From positions 372,001 through 436,000 of the forward strand of contig JAHLKG010000016.1 in NCBI GenBank assembly GCA_025526995.1: a stretch of 64,000 nt of DNA, in the 5' to 3' direction. Positions 2,404 through 39,300 of this stretch are shown piece by piece. The notes under the pieces were generated by a model. It was not told the origin of the DNA. It did not search any database and worked only from the letters and a program-made list of their open reading frames with translations. The DNA comes from Powellomyces hirtus. Lineage: Eukaryota > Chytridiomycota > Chytridiomycetes > Spizellomycetales > Powellomycetaceae. The position numbers and the translations under genes are program-made. Numbering within the stretch: position 1 is the stretch's first letter; each line of letters opens with the position of its first letter.

Positions 2404-3190
2404 TTTTTTATCCCCTCAACCATCTCCACCCACCCACCGCAATACTATTCTCGGCGTCGTTCACATTCCCTCTTTTAAATAACATACATCCATGTGTATA
2501 ACGTTGTAAAATAATATCCGACATCCCCAAAGCAGCATGAGAACGTAGCGCTAGATGTAGGACGCGGCGAGGGACCGGTATTCCCACCGACACACCCACA
2601 ACGCGTCCCTACGAATTCGGACATCGCCCTCAGGAATCTCACTGCCCATCTGGCCGTTATGCCAAACGACAAGGAGGATTCGGAGAAGAGACAGCACTCT
2701 CGTTTGCCGTCCCAAATAAGCGCCGAATTGAGAGAGGCTGATAAGGTTCCAGGCGTGCTGAAATTCGGCGCTCATTACTCAACAGGTTTTTGTAGTAGGG
2801 TTAGGGTTACGGTTAGAGTTAGGCCAGGTCGTAGATAGGCCTGTTTTCGTCACAGAAGCCAACTTGAAGGCTTAACTACTCTTTACAGTCCTCTGCATCA
2901 CTACACCCCGAAGGGAAGGCTTACCGACAGTCTGGTGGAGTTACGGCCATTTTTCTGCTAGTACATTCACCTGTATTAGCACAGTCGAGTTCAACTCATT
3001 CCCTCCGTAAAACCATCCAAACTACAAGTCTTCCGTCCCCCACAACTGTCACGAGCAATGCCAGTCCACGGATCTCCTCCCGGGGCGCGGGTACTCACCA
3101 AGTACTCCCCCGGTACCCGCCAAATCTCTCATTACGGACACAACGACTCACGACCAATCCTACCGTCTCGATTGGGACCTGCGTCGTTCG
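2404..3190. other. Gene-free stretch between uS15m and the virus-like block
   Basis: No open reading frame here looks coding. It contains the telomere-like run at 2795-2823. Near its end, GCGGGTAC at 3087 and GTACCCGC at 3112 form an 8-bp inverted repeat with a ~17-nt loop. The sequence up to about 2780 may be 3' flank of uS15m. I recognise nothing else. Confidence 0.5.
2795..2823 (+). repeat. Degenerate interstitial telomere-like repeat
   Basis: Reads TAGGGTTAGGGTTACGGTT followed by AGAGTTAGG: two exact TTAGGG-phase units followed by two or three imperfect ones. TTAGGG is the common telomere unit of fungi and animals. The run is only 29 bp and lies between an ordinary nuclear gene and the decayed virus-like block, so a chance origin cannot be excluded. 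Confidence 0.55.
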
Positions 3191-3196
3191 CCGTCG

Positions 3197-5117
3197 ATGG
3201 GATCACGAGCAAGCTGCAGGTCTTCCCTGCCTTGGCGAACAAAGATCGCTGGCAATGCTACGGCCATCACCGATATTCCCACCCTCAAAACCGACGTGTC
3301 TTCCCTGAAAACACGGGCTACCACCATTGAGGGAAATCGCTCATCGTTGCAAACCACCATCAATACCGCCAATAGCGATATAGCTTCGTTAAAAACCCGC
3401 ACCACCGCGGTGAACCTCGACTACCTCCTTGGGCAGTCGTTTGACAACGAATGAAGCCAGCACAGCGGGTCAGAGTACAGTACGTCCATTCCCGCGCTGC
3501 AGAACCGTACCACCGCAGCCGGAGGCACGATCACCACGCACACCAGACCGATCCAGCAAAACACCACCAAAATTGCCACCAATACCTTGGACATTGAAAA
3601 CGGCCGGACAACCCCGCGAAGCCACTGTCGCTACGCTGGGCGTCACACACTCTTTGCTTGGCGATACCACTGTCCGCAGCTACCCACCCGCAAGTGCCCT
3701 CGCCAAGTTCAATGCCATACGCCAACCATCACGGGCGAAGCGTATGGCAACGGCACATGGAATCTCTACTCCATCTCCGTGAACGGCAACTATGAGGTGG
3801 TCCGCGGGGTCGAACAACCCGACCAAGTAACGATGGCCCTGCAAGGGGCGTACAGTTCACAGTCCCAGTATGCTGCCACCACAGGCCTGTATATGAGCCA
3901 TGCCACGACCACGGACAAGAATGGCGTGGTGGAGGTGGGAGATATCTGGGCGTGCCAACCTCCTTCTGCGCGGAAACTGGTCAGGGTCACTTTGTTTCAC
4001 GAGGCACGCAGGTGGTCAGCGCGCCAAAAATAACTTTATTATTTTGTGCAAAGCGCCCGACACAGGCCTCTACACGAATGTCTTTTCGGCGACAGAAACT
4101 ACATTCGTCGCGGGCACTCCGCAAACATTTACCCTTGCCACCCCTACGGACTTTACGGAATCGCGCTTGGTAACGACAGTGAATGCGGGCGGTGACGGAG
4201 CAGTTCAGTTTCGACTCTGCTTCAGCGCAACAGCCCACTTTCCAGGCTCCACAGTGCTGCACACGCAAATCTTCACCGCTAAAACGCTGGCCGCCACCAC
4301 CTCTGTCACCGCACCCCAACTCAATGCCGGCGCAGTGACCCTCAACGACACCTTCTTGGGTGGAGATGCCACTGCTCGGGCGTACCCGAGCTGGGACATG
4401 GTAAACTCATCCAGTCAGTACTCTAATCCCGTGGCGAACCAACCCTACGGTAAAGGCTTTTGGCGGTTCACCTCGTCGTCAATTGTGAACGGCGGGTTTG
4501 TGCCTGAGTTCGGGTTTTGGCCTGACCTCAGCATGGGCGGCAACTGGTGCAGTGCGTTTGGTCGGTACGATGGAACGACCGGCAACTATGTCAGCAGCGT
4601 CAGCACCCTCGACAATAACGGGGCGGTGCACTTGGGGGAATTCTGGCAGGTGATGCCGCCGACCCCGAAGCACATTACCAGTGTCCGGATTATACGGCGG
4701 TTTGCCGCGCCCCGCAGTTTTGTCATTCTGGGCACCATGGTCTCCGCTGTGGATACCGCTGTATATTACGAACACAGACGTGGCATGGGGTCCGTCGCCC
4801 AAGCGCAGACGTTCAACATCACCGACGGCTTTGATGTGGCAGACATGCGCATCATCATCCGGGTCATTGTAGCTGGCACAGGGGAAACGGTATCGAGTCT
4901 GGTCGTTGCCTTCACCGTGACCACCCCAGGGTCTGGAGCGGCTACCTTTAGCGCCCGGATTCTCACCGGCTTTCAACACCTCTGTCTGTTGAAATGGTGC
5001 GGAATGGCAATGGGATCTCGGCGGCGGTCGAAGAGCTGCCTCTGTTCTAAGACTCTAGAGTGCCTCCTGCGATGCTGTTATCGACCCCAGCGCGTGGTTT
5101 GTGCGACGGCTTCCTAA
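3197..5117 (+). pseudogene. Broken virus-like fibre/adhesin gene with two discoidin-like domains
   Basis: A long coding relic read in more than one frame. At 3265-3420 a heptad-rich stem (TLKTDVSSLKTRATTI, SLQTTINTANSDIASLKTR) resembles trimeric fibre stalks. The same frame meets TGA at 3452-3454 and then continues to about 3610. A first globular domain begins in another frame near 3620 (SLLGDTTVRSYPP), shifts near 3720-3740 (NGTWNLYSISVNGNY, GVVEVGDIWACQPPSARKL) and shifts again near 4010-4035 (NFIILCKAPDTGLYTN). The second copy is intact in one frame from about 4320 to 4930: FLGGDATARAYPS, GKGFWRFTSSS, GAVHLGEFWQVMPPTPKHI, APRSFVILGTM. The G-E-W-Q..P..I..(R)AP.SF.I.G layout resembles the repeated F5/8C-like domains of giant-virus and phycodnavirus proteins (family memory, not searched). 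At least one stop and two frameshifts argue for decay; no splice signals rescue the frames. Confidence 0.55.
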
Positions 5118-5384
5118 AGCGGACTCGCTCGGTCGGGGGCCCCTGTCGCAAGGCTACGTGAAATGAGTTGTAGTCAACAAAGATTTCCATGCGGTGCTGT
5201 CACGTCGCCGAGGGGAAATTATGCGCGTGCAGGCAATCGCGTTGAAGCATTGCACGGATTCTAAGTTTCTCAACAGGTTCAAAAAGCCGCTCGCCTGCGC
5301 CAAGCAGATGAGAAGGATAATGAAACCGGCTCTTCTCCCACGTTTGCAATTGTCTTTTTTTGATGCTATTTTCATCCATCACTT

Positions 5385-6640
5385 TTGCATTGCCGGAGCT
5401 TATCTTTGTTGATGAGTTGTGCGTCGCTAGATCGAACAAGACAGCTGATCCAGATGAATGAAGACCTGGAGCAGGAGCTGCTCATGCAACTCGACCGGAT
5501 TGCCAACGCATACAGCCTCCATGTCTTGTTCTCTCGGCGCCATGGGGTAGGTTGGCAAGAGGTCTACGATGCACACAGAACGGGTTATGCCGCGAATCCA
5601 CCAGCGAATTCTGGTGTCGCCCGTGTTTCCCAGTCCGACCATGTTTGAGGCAACTCGGTGCAGCCACGGCTGCCGGACAATCCGTACCCGGACGGTGGCT
5701 TTCTCTTTGTAACTGTCAAAGCCATCACACCCAGTCTAGCAAGCGGCCCGTTCAAGGTCATTGCCTTCAGGAATGAAGTGCCGGCTGGCACGGACGATGA
5801 ACCCAGCTGAATAGCTGGCTCACCTCTCGCCCCTTAATTTTGAAAATCCGACATTCTTAGACAAAGAATGGAAGCCCCCAGCAATCAACTGCTTTCGAAC
5901 CTGCATGATTTGAAGGCATCTAGTGCGATTGTTGTTGCGCATAAACAAGCCCACGCAACTGGTCTTGACCAGCTTCGCCGCAACCGTCAGGTTTTGCTTG
6001 AGGCCGTCAACTCGAGCCGAGTTCAGCAACCAACCGCGCTGGTGGAGCATGTTTTCGACTTCACCGAGCATCTACAGGCCAGCGTTGGTACTACGGTATT
6101 CGGGCCGCTGTGGACGATCTTGTCGATAAGACAAGCGACCTTGTACAAAAGGTCGCCAGACTTGTGATTGACACACATGACAGCCTTTTACGGACCATTG
6201 CTATCAACGTCGAGCTCTAACTGAAGTGCCAGCTTCTCGACCTCGCCTCTTGGCACTACAAGGACGAGGAGATGCTCAAAACTTCCACGGAGCAAGCCAT
6301 GGACCTCGCCGCTCAGCGCGACAAACTGAGTGCAGAGAAGATCCTAAAAGCGTGGGTTTCCTGATGCGGACCACACGCAGAGGAAGTTTGCTGAATCCAT
6401 ACAACTACTGAAAGTTGTCAGCCATGATGTGCAGCCCGTTACCGACGTCGATGGAACTCTTATCGATCTGGCTGCCGCAAAGACGCTCATTCAAGCCGAC
6501 TTTGAGGTCCCCCGCGGGGTCTCGTCAAGCGGGCCGAAAATGGGATGAGCCTCATAAGCAGGTCGCTTTGTACTATCTTGATAAAGTCTATGCTATCAGG
6601 GAGACTGAAGGACAACATGTCTTACTTTTTTCCTGAGTTT
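5385..6640 (+). pseudogene. Further decayed coding fragments downstream of the fibre-like relic
   Basis: Several protein-like stretches lie in alternating frames on the plus strand. They are at 5412-5648 (EDLEQELLMQLDRIANAYSL), 5650-5810 (NPYPDGGFLFVTVKAITPS, ending at a stop), 5868-6090 (LLSNLHDLKASSAIVVAHKQ, amphipathic helical), 6095-6220 (DDLVDKTSDLVQKVARLVI), 6230-6363 (LASWHYKDEEMLKTSTEQ) and 6360-6546 (DVDGTLIDLAAAKTLIQADF). Each is 40-80 codons and interrupted by stops or frame changes. None has a family I recognise. Their base composition and position suggest they belong to the same inserted block as the fibre-like relic. They may be one or several genes. Confidence 0.35.
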
Positions 6641-7381
6641 ATATTGAGAGGTACAATGTTATTCTAAGACTATGTTGGGATCTGTCAACGTTGCCAGTAT
6701 CTTGTCAAATGCCTCTTCATCCTCACTGCTGAAATGAAATAAAGTGTAAAGGTTCTTGTTGTTGTCTTCGTCCTTTTGTTCAGCCTTCTCGTTATTCATT
6801 GCTAGCCGTTGATCGATGGTGGGTTCATATGCTTGTCGCGCAAATGCATCAATGAATCAGTAACGCTTGGCTTCGCCCATTTCAGGGATGGGCACACAAA
6901 CTAATCGCACTTCATGTACCTTCATCATCTCCTCATCCCTGTGACGATTACAACGCGATGGCACTCTGTCATTCAGATCCCCCAAACTGCTGGTTTCTTA
7001 CAGCTAATGAATGGTGTTTGCTCATTGTTCATATGCAGTTTCGCTGCATCATTCCAGCGGTACTGCATCATTCCAGCGGTACATGTTGTTTCGGACAACA
7101 TATGCTTTAAGGATTCCAGCGGAACCTGTGATCTTCATAGATGAGCACAGCCATATATCTGCTTGCATGTCTATTCAAAAGTTTCCAGACTATCGACAAG
7201 AAGCTCTTGGTGGAAAACCTTTGAAAAGTATACCCGAGCGCCTCATCACCGTGCGTTCAGAGGCGGCAAGTCCCACACATCATCTAACGTCGCCAGGTTC
7301 TGATGAGCAATAAGGTGCAATGATGTGGCCTGACCAATAACATTTCAGATTGAAGATCTACCAAGGTTAGAGGATCGCCTT
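6641..7381. other. Gene-free stretch with a 19-bp tandem repeat
   Basis: AT-richer than its flanks, with no credible coding sequence. Holds the duplicated 19-mer at 7045-7082. A possible right edge of the inserted block lies here, but I see no terminal repeats or target duplication. Confidence 0.4.
7045..7082 (+). repeat. Two exact 19-bp tandem copies plus a third partial copy
   Basis: TGCATCATTCCAGCGGTAC occurs at 7045-7063 and again at 7064-7082, back to back. Its core ATTCCAGCGG occurs once more at 7113-7122. Function unknown; slippage in non-coding DNA is the simplest view. Confidence 0.85.
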
Positions 7382-8225
7382 TCAATAAATTATACCAACT
7401 TTCACTTCCCCTTCAAACTCGTATATAAGTACACCTCTACGGAACGGTTCAGTCCATACTATGCATCTACTCTGAAAATGGAGAAAGCTGAGATAAATTT
7501 TCAACATGCAAGTCGTGCTCGCGGCAAACAGCGCCACGCGGACCAACCCGGGCCAGTCTGCCAGATCGGTGGGCTGCCACGCTGCGACCCCGCGCGGTTT
7601 GAGGACCCAGCCCCACACGAGTAAAGGGAGCGCGGATGAAAAGTAGGCCCAGAGTTGGTAGACGAAATACGGTTTTTCGCGCAGTGGGGTCGTGCGCGTA
7701 GGGGTGGTTCGGAGGGTCGCGAAGACGGTTTCGGCATGCATGAGCTGGTTCTCATGTTCCCAATGCGCGAGACCGAGTGCGTAGCGGCGGAGGAAGGCAT
7801 ACAGCCACCAATGCAGCACGGGGACCCACAACGGACTCCAACTACCACATTGCTGCAGCTCCGCAGCCTCCTGTGGTGGTGGTGGTGGTGGTGCCCATTT
7901 AGCTCTACTCGAACAAATGGCCTTGCTCGACAAGAACCACCACGCGCTCCAAATCGCGCCGTTCATGACGTACGTGCCATACAGCAGCACCGCGCGTTCA
8001 AACGGCGGGTGCAGAAATCGACCGGCAAGAGTGAGTGTGTAGAAGACGAGTTGGACTGCGCTCACCCAGTCGACGTACGTCACGGGGTGCGTGATGCAGT
8101 GCAGGCGGTCGAAATCACCCCACGGACGGTGGTGGGCGCTGTAGCAGGACGCACCTAGCCGGTGCAAGTAGTGGTAGCAGAGGTAGCAGTGGAGGAAGGT
8201 CACGACGTAGCCGTATGAGATCTTG
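7382..8225 (-). CDS. Multi-pass membrane protein, unidentified; 5' exon(s) unresolved
   Basis: A 3' exon of about 281 codons, open from a good acceptor (GATTCAG at 8226-8232) to TGA at 7382-7384. There is no ATG near its start, so at least one upstream exon is missing from this call. It has about five hydrophobic segments, for example around YVDWVSAVQLVFYTLTLAG, VLHWWLYAFLRRYAL and VYQLWAYFSSALPLLVWGW. A histidine-bearing stretch SAHHRPWGDFDRLHCITHP precedes the first of these. The His spacing recalls fatty-acid hydroxylase/sterol desaturase membrane enzymes only loosely; I do not claim that function. A Pro-rich loop (WAPPPPPPQ) lies mid-protein. Real coding is supported by length, membrane pattern and splice site. 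Confidence 0.5.
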
Positions 8226-36387: not shown

Positions 36388-39300
36388 CTACGGCGGCAAC
36401 TCTGTCACATTAACTCCCGCAACCGTATACATGCGTCCCTCAACGCTCGCTGGGCGGGCATGTGAACTGACATTCGCCACCGTGTTCACACTCGCATTCG
36501 CAGCCGTATTTGCCGAAGGCGGTTTGAAATTCAACGCGCGACCTTCTTCATATACTTCTTCCAGGGCTTCCTGAAACCGGTTTTCGGCTTTGAGCTGGAG
36601 ATACTTTTTGTAAAGCGCGAGAGCCTGTTGAAAACTGTGAATCAGAGGAGTATGGGGGAAGCGAAAGATGCCGGAATGTGGCTTACGGTACGGGAGTCCT
36701 CGATACTGTCATGAACTTCAATCTGGATGTCTTTTCGAAGCAGACACCAAGCGAGGAAGCGCAGCGAGAGTTTTCTATCAAACATAACTCATCTTCATCA
36801 GTTTCACGGTTCTCTCCTTCCTTTCACTTTTTGTCTTGTCGGTGACCGCCCAACTTACCGTTGTCGATTTTGAATATGAAATATATCAACCGTATCTATG
36901 ACTTGTTCGTTCGGGACCAGAATATCTAGAACAACAACACAGATTTAGGAGACACGCTTACATGAAGAAAATTTCGGGCACCTGACTCAACTGATGATCC
37001 GGAAATCCTTCTTGAGTCCGTGGCCAACAAACACGCATCCGAGGTCAACCAGAAGCCGCAGCTTCTTGTACGCCGACTTGAGGGACACGAGAGGATGTCT
37101 GGAATGCGCCGTGTCCAAATCTCCAGCTACAAAGACAAAAAAGAACGATCACGCATCAAAAACAGAATCATACATCCCGTCCGCCGCCCTCTCACAAGCC
37201 CCTTTGCACCACCCCACCTTTGATCCCCGAAAACTCCGTCAAATAATCCACAATCTCCTCCGTCGTCGAAATATACTCATCGATAAAGGGCACACCCTCC
37301 AGGGGTCCATCGGCGCCGCGGAGGACACTGACGCGGGCTAAAGTGAGTCGGGACGGGCGGATAACGGACCGGGTCCCATCGGACCGGATCTCGGCTTCGT
37401 CTTTGCTGAGGGCGACGAATTCCGCGTCGAGCGCGCACAGGAAGCCGGGCGCGGTGGGCAGTTCCGATGGGTGCAGAATCTTGTAGGTAAATTTGAGGTC
37501 GCGTTCTTTGCGGCGGCTGTGAGAGGGGGAGAGGATAGTGTGAGCTTCGTGGTGGTTTTTCGGCGCGGGGGGAGGAGGGGGAAGGTGTTTAAAGTGGTGA
37601 GAAACGGTTTCAGAACTCACTTAAGCAGAACCATGTCGCGAAGATACGCGGGATTCGGGGTTGTGGGCAGCGAGCTGAAATCTTGGATCGCGTCCACGTC
37701 GATCTTCTTGTACTGGAACACGGCCGGGACCTATAAAAGCATGAAAGGAAATCAGAATGCCGGCTCTGAACATCTGCCAGAAATGGTTTAGACACCTAGT
37801 CACTACTGCTCGACCTACCTTCCACTTCTTGAACTGTCTAGCCTCATACTCTGGTATCGACTGGACCAAAAAGTCATTGAAGATGAACCACTGCTGTCCA
37901 ACCGCCGTTTCAACTGTCGATCACAATTGCAAAATGAGTCAGCGCATATCTAATCTTCATCTTCTCATGTTTCTCATTTTGCTCCCGCCTTTCCTTACCA
38001 CACATGTGAGCCACCAGATGCGGCACCTCATTCTCCTCTTTGATTTCCACGACGGTGGCGACCAGATCGTAGATGGCGAGTTGAGCCGTGGGCGGTGCGA
38101 TGGCGGTGGTCGAGTTACGATCAAGGGGTTGGATCGTCAGGGTGCCATTATCAAACACCATTGCTAAGCTAAAGATGAAGGTAAATTCAAACCATACAAA
38201 CAGATTAAATAGCGTGAGCGGGGGTTCCAGTGCTGTGCACATGTGTGCCGAGATTGGCATTGACGAGCTTACCGTGCCGGGATGAACGGAATATCTACAC
38301 CAACAAATCATGAGCATTTGTTGTATCACAAAAGCAGGTCACCCTTACTGATAACATTACGTACCCGAACGATACAGTTCCAGCTCGTCCTCATTAGTGG
38401 CGCATGCATTGATGCTCAGGAAATTTGGTGGGCGCTGGAGATTTCTGTACTGATTTGTAGGCTGGTATCGTTTGCAGGTATTGCACCACGCTTTCGTTGT
38501 GGATACGCGGTTGATGCTATTTTGCAGGATACCGACAAAAGTGTCCGATGGAGTTTGCTTGCCCGGTGATCCCTGCTGCACAATCAAATCAGTAACCACC
38601 TCAATATTCCCACCCATACGGTTCTTCCATACTTTTCGCGGGTACGACAAATCTACGACGAACGGGTACGTGTCTCTGGCATTGACGGCGTTACAAGAGC
38701 AATGGGAGATGGCCTGGAGCTGCAAGCCGTAAATTTGCTGCATGGTGGTGGTTGGAGAGGTGTAATTTCGCGGTATGATGACGGTGCGGCTGTCGTCGCC
38801 GAGGTCGGATTGGATCTGCTCGAGAACAAACCGGTTGAAGTTTTGTATCAGTGTGGCGTACGAGATGGACGGGGAGGGTTGGTCCGGTTCGAATAGGCCG
38901 AGAGCACTGGCTGTGTGACAGAGAAAGAACGATTGGTACAGGGAGGATGAGCAAAAACGACGTAAGTGTCGGGTTAGTTTCTGTTTGTATTTTATTATTT
39001 TACCTTGCGGGATCGTTTTGAAAGCCCTCAAAAAATTCGTCGCCTGACAATTCGCTCCTTTGGCCGTCTCCAGCATCCTGAACAAAAATCCCAACTCGCA
39101 CGTCAAGCAATACTCTTTCGCACACGTGGTTTTAATATGGGCTTTGGCCAATTCTCTGAGCGGGCGGGTGAAGTAGAAGACTTGGAGCATGGCATTGCAA
39201 TAAGAATTGACAATGTGGGTTTCAAGTCCGCCGTAGGGCGTCTTGTTGTAAAATCCAAAATCAAAGTCCTCGATGCCGAATTTGCTGTATTTGATTTCGA

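Follow-up and report, generated by a model that had tools for sequence, protein, structure and literature searches.

Integrated polinton-like viruses of Rhizaria and glaucophytes are described as encoding fibre-type proteins with F5_F8_C domains, either single or paired (PMC12220804), and an integrase, an ATPase, a capsid protein and a fibre make up the gene set given for polinton-like viruses in the consulted parts of two reports (PMC12220804, PMC10120064). Among fungi, the chytrid Spizellomyces punctatus was reported to harbor one integrated polinton-like virus, and the existence of dsDNA viruses of fungi was suggested (PMC7805220); the words fiber, fibre, discoidin and lectin are absent from the main text of that report. 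Among open-licence PMC papers we came across none that describes a fibre with discoidin domains for a polinton-like virus of fungi, which is not proof of absence. In general, little is known about the DNA viruses of zoosporic fungi. The locus considered here lies in a 64,000-nucleotide stretch of DNA (the window, i.e., the whole stretch analysed) and is probably an old, dead fragment of the attachment-fibre gene of a polinton-type DNA virus, captured and then decayed.

On the plus strand, positions 3242-4925 (about 560 codons seen) encode, in pieces, a stalk followed by two tandem copies of one domain (Table 1). The left end of the interval 3197..5117 is uncertain; a retrotransposon fragment precedes it. 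The preliminary description had recognized a heptad-rich stalk interrupted by an in-frame TGA and two domain copies with conserved positions in register, the second whole in one frame and the first split by frame changes, and all of this was recovered: copy 2 aligns with the middle of copy 1 (3719-4006) at 32% identity over 94 columns (E 5e-13, BLASTP, a single comparison) and lies within the ORF 3897-5114, while copy 1 is distributed over three stretches in two frames. The domain size of about 200 residues had to be revised, the copies being spaced by 702 nt from start to start, with a repeat unit of 234 codons and a domain core of roughly 160. As to the motifs said to be shared, the repetition stands, alignment between the copies being weak both at the start motif (LGGDATARAYP / LLGDTTVRSYP) and in the C-terminal part (E 0.002 and 0.006, respectively); the last motif, (R)APxSFxILG, present as APRSFVILG, is weak in copy 1. 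In the longest open frame, the first ~40 and the last ~60 codons lie outside the domains.

A spliced living gene, i.e., a domesticated viral fibre whose breaks are introns or assembly errors, could be imagined, given the 406 codons open in one frame. However, the stretches of copy 1 are at most 13 nt apart, less than an ordinary intron needs, which makes splicing a poor explanation; the in-frame TGA and the flanks, composed of scraps of unrelated loci, also speak against a living gene, and we consider it extremely improbable. In its present state the gene cannot yield a whole protein. The stalk, searched as the ORF 3011-3451, gave the minor head protein PHROG 19577 as the best of eight listed matches (E 6e-8) and FliD_N in Pfam (E 0.0082, below the cut-off of that family), which are matches of the kind that coiled coils often give; no second copy of the stalk was found in the genome at E<=0.1.

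Table 1. Features of the relic, of its surroundings and of the related region on C3 (positions are those of the window unless preceded by C3).
Feature	Position	Strand	Remarks
Degenerate TTAGGG-type (telomere-like) tract	2796..2823	+	TRF period 6, 4.7 copies, score 42; left edge of the patchwork
Gag-bearing retrotransposon, leader and beginning, decayed	2831..3077	+	Multi-copy in the genome
Heptad-like stalk, first open stretch	3242..3451	+	Translation; ended by TGA 3452-3454
Stalk continuation past the TGA	3455..3610	+	Translation; same frame, then a frame change (placed by eye)
Discoidin-like domain, copy 1	3621..4250	+	Split by frame changes: about 3621-3719, 3719-4006, 4020-4250
Longest open frame of the relic	3897..5117	+	406 codons between stops
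Discoidin-like (F5/8C-type) domain, copy 2	4338..4925	+	Whole, single frame; HMM, hhalign, AlphaFold2 and fold matches
119-bp piece in common with a C15 locus	5173..5291	+	93.3% identity; F-box-like gene, by eye
279-bp piece in common with a C4 locus	5304..5582	+	91% identity; adjoins a PRPP-synthetase-like gene (named by eye)
C3 fibre ORF	C3:288184-294426		2081 codons; shaft-like repeats and two F5/8C domains
C3 polinton-like region	C3:288184-303741 (L116-L118)		Integrated; read in part

The identity of the domain was assessed with an HMM built from 20 domains of viral contigs, without any window sequence, for a family gathered by means of sequence motifs. These domains came from 19 of 27 candidate loci; L080, L087, L096 and L098 were left out by hand (out of context), L074 and L099 as repeats of others, and L093 and L100 as lacking the stricter peptide motif. 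Among 992 six-frame ORFs, two window ORFs ranked first and second (full-sequence E 5.6e-11 for ORF 3897-5114, containing copy 2, and 0.018 for ORF 3455-4030, containing the middle of copy 1), and for neither did any of the 2000 shuffles reach the real score. The former ORF scored 38.5 bits against 7.2 for the best shuffle and the latter 10.8 against 10.2, so that copy 1 alone is marginal against this HMM (hhalign E 0.058). Copy 2 covers positions 1-171 of the 186 of the HMM (best domain E 3.9e-9), aligns with the viral profile by hhalign (95.1%, E 3.5e-8, 157 columns) and matches the viral fibre F5/8C subfamily, with its layout YPP..M...GxY...GEWLQI..P, along the whole domain. The AlphaFold2 model of the product of 4317-4937 (pLDDT 77.8, pTM 0.77; a two-row alignment gave a pLDDT of 34.1) has the discoidin/F5-8C beta-sandwich fold, and the first named match that Foldseek gives for it in BFVD comes from Bathycoccus sp. 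RCC716 virus 1, an F5/8C protein (E 2.4e-10, TM 0.72 on the query).

Two alignments were compiled: A4 holds 19 of the 20 HMM rows (L097 omitted) and A5 holds 57 of 60 domain copies plus the window row, i.e., 58 rows, 38 of which match Pfam F5_F8_type_C (PF00754) at E<=0.01. Neither the window row nor the window copies themselves match any Pfam family, F5_F8_type_C included. Direct searches with copy 2 or copy 1 gave no relatives: in the protein collection, the window's own ORF alone came up, 2360 and 3844 candidates having been scored in the searches with copy 2; searches of PHROGs, of INPHARED and, by back-translated peptides, of IMG/VR revealed no relative, and the PDB sequence search gave one chance-like antibody match (E 0.072). 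The pattern GYGNGTY (47 contigs) led to no domain relative, and a weak match of L031 (E 0.0011) was judged to be due to chance. With the L073 domain as query, the protein collection yielded two proteins, the sequences of which identify them as the two L073 genes (7983 best candidates scored).

A search of the genome with PF00754 gave 18 places, 17 of them in nine long frames (1178-2230 codons) and the remaining one in an ORF of 258 aa; none of the 18 lies in the window. The nine fibre loci, found on C3, C30, C13, C50, C25, C8, C26 and C7, have two related domains each, and the first domain of the C8 fibre has a stop inside. The C3 fibre matches, besides F5_F8_type_C, the adenovirus-type N-terminal part Av_adeno_fibre (1.2e-7). 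Its neighbors are an integrase (rve and chromodomain, 9.3e-11 and 1.4e-8), an A32-type ATPase (Pox_A32, 9.2e-6; no PDB match) and a 416-aa capsid-like protein, called so from a sub-threshold Capsid_N match (E 0.0062) and from the layout; the PDB yielded no match to this protein, and peptide patterns no relative of it in IMG/VR. Four further C3 proteins, besides a 314-aa one, match no Pfam family. The capsid-like gene is present in seven copies in the genome (six at 79-100% and one at 52%), each, by coordinates, at most about 11 kb from fibre domains; among the matches listed, no such copy accompanies the C26 and C7 fibre loci. The genome carries an integrated polinton-like virus or several of them, and at least one fibre gene lies inside such a virus (C3, read in part). 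A response-regulator gene (L116, C3:286879-287571; PF00072, 6.7e-17) adjoins the C3 fibre and is a candidate host or element gene.

The second domain of the C3 fibre (D2) links the relic to these loci. At E<=0.1 it has 19 matches in the genome, of which 18 are spread over the nine fibre loci, two per locus, and one falls in the window, the latter being the only match outside the fibre loci (E 8.8e-7, 33%) and better than those of the fibres' own first domains (5.0e-6 or weaker). Among 59 domains (57 viral and two of C3), the top scorer for copy 2 is host D2 (3.1e-11; 32% over 114 aa), followed by two L108 domains; for copy 1 it is an L108 domain (3.4e-8), followed by host D2 (5.1e-7). By tblastn, D2 also finds copy 1 at 3743-4000 (31%, E 1.1e-4), and the match of copy 1 to the C3 fibre (E 1.1e-5) is weaker than that of copy 2. 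The reverse search of the 29.26 Mb genome, with the ORF 3897-5114 as query and a limit of E<=0.001, finds only this ORF itself and copy 1 (E 1.9e-8) and lists no fibre locus. Identity of 31-33% means that the relic is not a copy of any fibre locus found in the assembly, and, as its DNA matches neither the C3 stretch nor any other place in the genome and its stalk is unmatched elsewhere, it is a divergent relative and not a recent copy. Of 11 C3 proteins compared with the window (tblastn, E<=0.1), only the fibre gives a credible match, no piece of capsid, integrase or ATPase being found; a 44-aa match of another C3 protein at 37351-37482 (E 0.004) was judged to be due to chance. Within the window the relic thus lacks the linked capsid, ATPase and integrase genes expected of a polinton-like virus fibre, and we class it as a fibre-gene fragment of polinton-like type and not as an element. 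Pfam found no adenovirus-type N-terminal part in the pieces of the relic, which may be truncated.

F5/8C domains are common in cells, and one might instead suppose a host gene, now decayed, that encoded a secreted lectin of discoidin-like type and had no link to viruses. The genome does contain an F5/8C domain (C7:9429-9797, E 4.2e-4) in the separate 258-aa ORF, possibly a cellular discoidin-type protein, which was missed by the D2 search. However, tandem domains on a heptad-like stalk and the fit to the viral-domain profile do not favor a lectin gene, the only relatives that host D2 found in the genome are fibre loci, and the direct protein searches with copy 2 brought up the window's own ORF alone among the candidates scored. 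We regard a lectin origin as quite improbable.

The other possible source is a giant virus (Nucleocytoviricota) in place of a polinton-type one. The domain occurs in contig L081, together with an mRNA capping enzyme, TS-DHFR and Hsp70, and in contig L094, together with glycosyltransferases and kinases; this gene content suggests giant viruses, Pfam having covered 10 of 24 L081 ORFs (40 of the 43 kb of this contig read) and 10 of 37 L094 ORFs. The algal-virus match in BFVD points in the same direction, as do the giant-virus genes that the consulted part of one paper reports in Gonapodya and Allomyces (PMC5294986). However, copy 2 scores better with host fibre D2 and with L108, whose contig encodes a DUF5906/primase-type protein and laminin-G repeats, than with the L081 and L094 domains. 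The giant-virus capsid families PF16903 and PF04451 were silent in this genome, and the capsid search of 19 viral records, L081 and L094 included, gave 0/19; this counts little, because the controls (including 14 control genomes) were silent too and the host's own capsid-like genes were missed. Four phage records, three of them from Erwinia phages, also match the L094 domain weakly (E 9e-5 to 1e-3). On the whole, a giant-virus source seems unlikely to us.

The preliminary description had taken the domains for discoidin-like ones, which agrees with the predicted fold and with the F5_F8_type_C matches of the viral relatives; it had called the gene virus-like and fibre-like, in line with the ranking by the viral HMM, the hhalign and fold matches and the preference of copy 2 for host D2; and it had proposed an endogenised virus, to which the related fibre loci of the same genome lend support. 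Its derivation from a large DNA virus is supported as to the viral origin and is narrowed here to a probable polinton-like source, a polinton-like virus fibre being the best-scoring relative of copy 2; the domain nevertheless is present also in giant-virus-type contigs and the Bathycoccus virus.

The surroundings of the relic are a patchwork. At its left edge stands the telomere-like tract; TTAGGG arrays give 901 forward and 82 reverse matches in the genome; among those listed, one lies right at the beginning of C3 (126-245), and C1 and C2 carry long ones. Next comes the retrotransposon leader, on which 38 of the 41 DNA matches listed fall (73-88% identity). The copy L012 of this retrotransposon matches Ty3_capsid, Retrotrans_gag and Pol_BBD; the family (L010-L019, L021, L022) shares stretches of roughly 2 kb, mostly 84-99% identical to L012, and many of its loci have an inverted piece nearby. 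The upstream repeat 2984-3058 was considered as a viral promoter and rejected, being part of this leader. Positions 3085-5172 have no second DNA copy in the genome. To the right follow the pieces in common with the C15 and C4 loci, the ORFs of which match no Pfam family at E<=0.01; for 5580-7400 the DNA search found neither a second copy nor a donor. Several short open pieces with shifting frames occupy 5421-6350 (four were tested, none exceeding a Pfam cut-off) and are perhaps further decayed captured genes. A perfect 19-bp tandem duplication was observed at 7044-7082, and a related stretch of 17 nt follows at 7113. The window also holds a tubulin-tyrosine-ligase family gene, consistent with a flagellate host.

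Such a patchwork probably reflects capture during break repair, a gene-capturing transposon being the alternative maker. The fibre fragment would have entered the chromosome amid pieces of the retrotransposon leader, of two other loci and of the telomere-like tract, probably while a break was repaired, and would have decayed afterwards. In the live virus, the fibre would have consisted of a stalk and two tandem discoidin-like (F5/8C, CBM32-like) domains, which the stalk would have set at a distance from the capsid and which would have held cell-surface sugars; the modelled fold of copy 2 fits binding of surface sugars, and the fibre is predicted to have been trimeric and glycan-binding. We infer that the gene came from the same virus group as the host fibres, and not merely from a virus with a similar domain. 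Possibly, though we put this forward only tentatively, it belonged to another polinton-type virus lineage of this host, of which nothing else survives, with DNA of that lineage serving as filler in the patching of a chromosome break.

If the host is a zoosporic fungus, a single genome of this group contains several virus insertions with a large fibre and paired discoidin domains, and the relic points to a more divergent fibre relative that was present in this host earlier. What such viruses grip on the host surface, and whether break repair catches viral DNA, become testable. Like the C3 host fibre, the relic has stalk-like repeats and two F5/8C-type domains; in contrast to the relic, the C3 fibre is open, far longer (2081 codons versus about 560), possesses the Av_adeno_fibre N-terminal part and further C-terminal parts, and lies beside integrase, ATPase and capsid-like genes. 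The F5/8C protein of Bathycoccus sp. RCC716 virus 1 has the same fold as copy 2, but belongs to an algal virus and is 19% identical. As far as the descriptions in the consulted parts of the reports go, the fibres of Rhizaria and glaucophyte polinton-like viruses are alike in their discoidin domains and come from other hosts (PMC12220804), while the virus of Spizellomyces punctatus, reported as one element, is likewise polinton-like and integrated in a zoosporic fungus (PMC7805220). The relic is of a kind already known.
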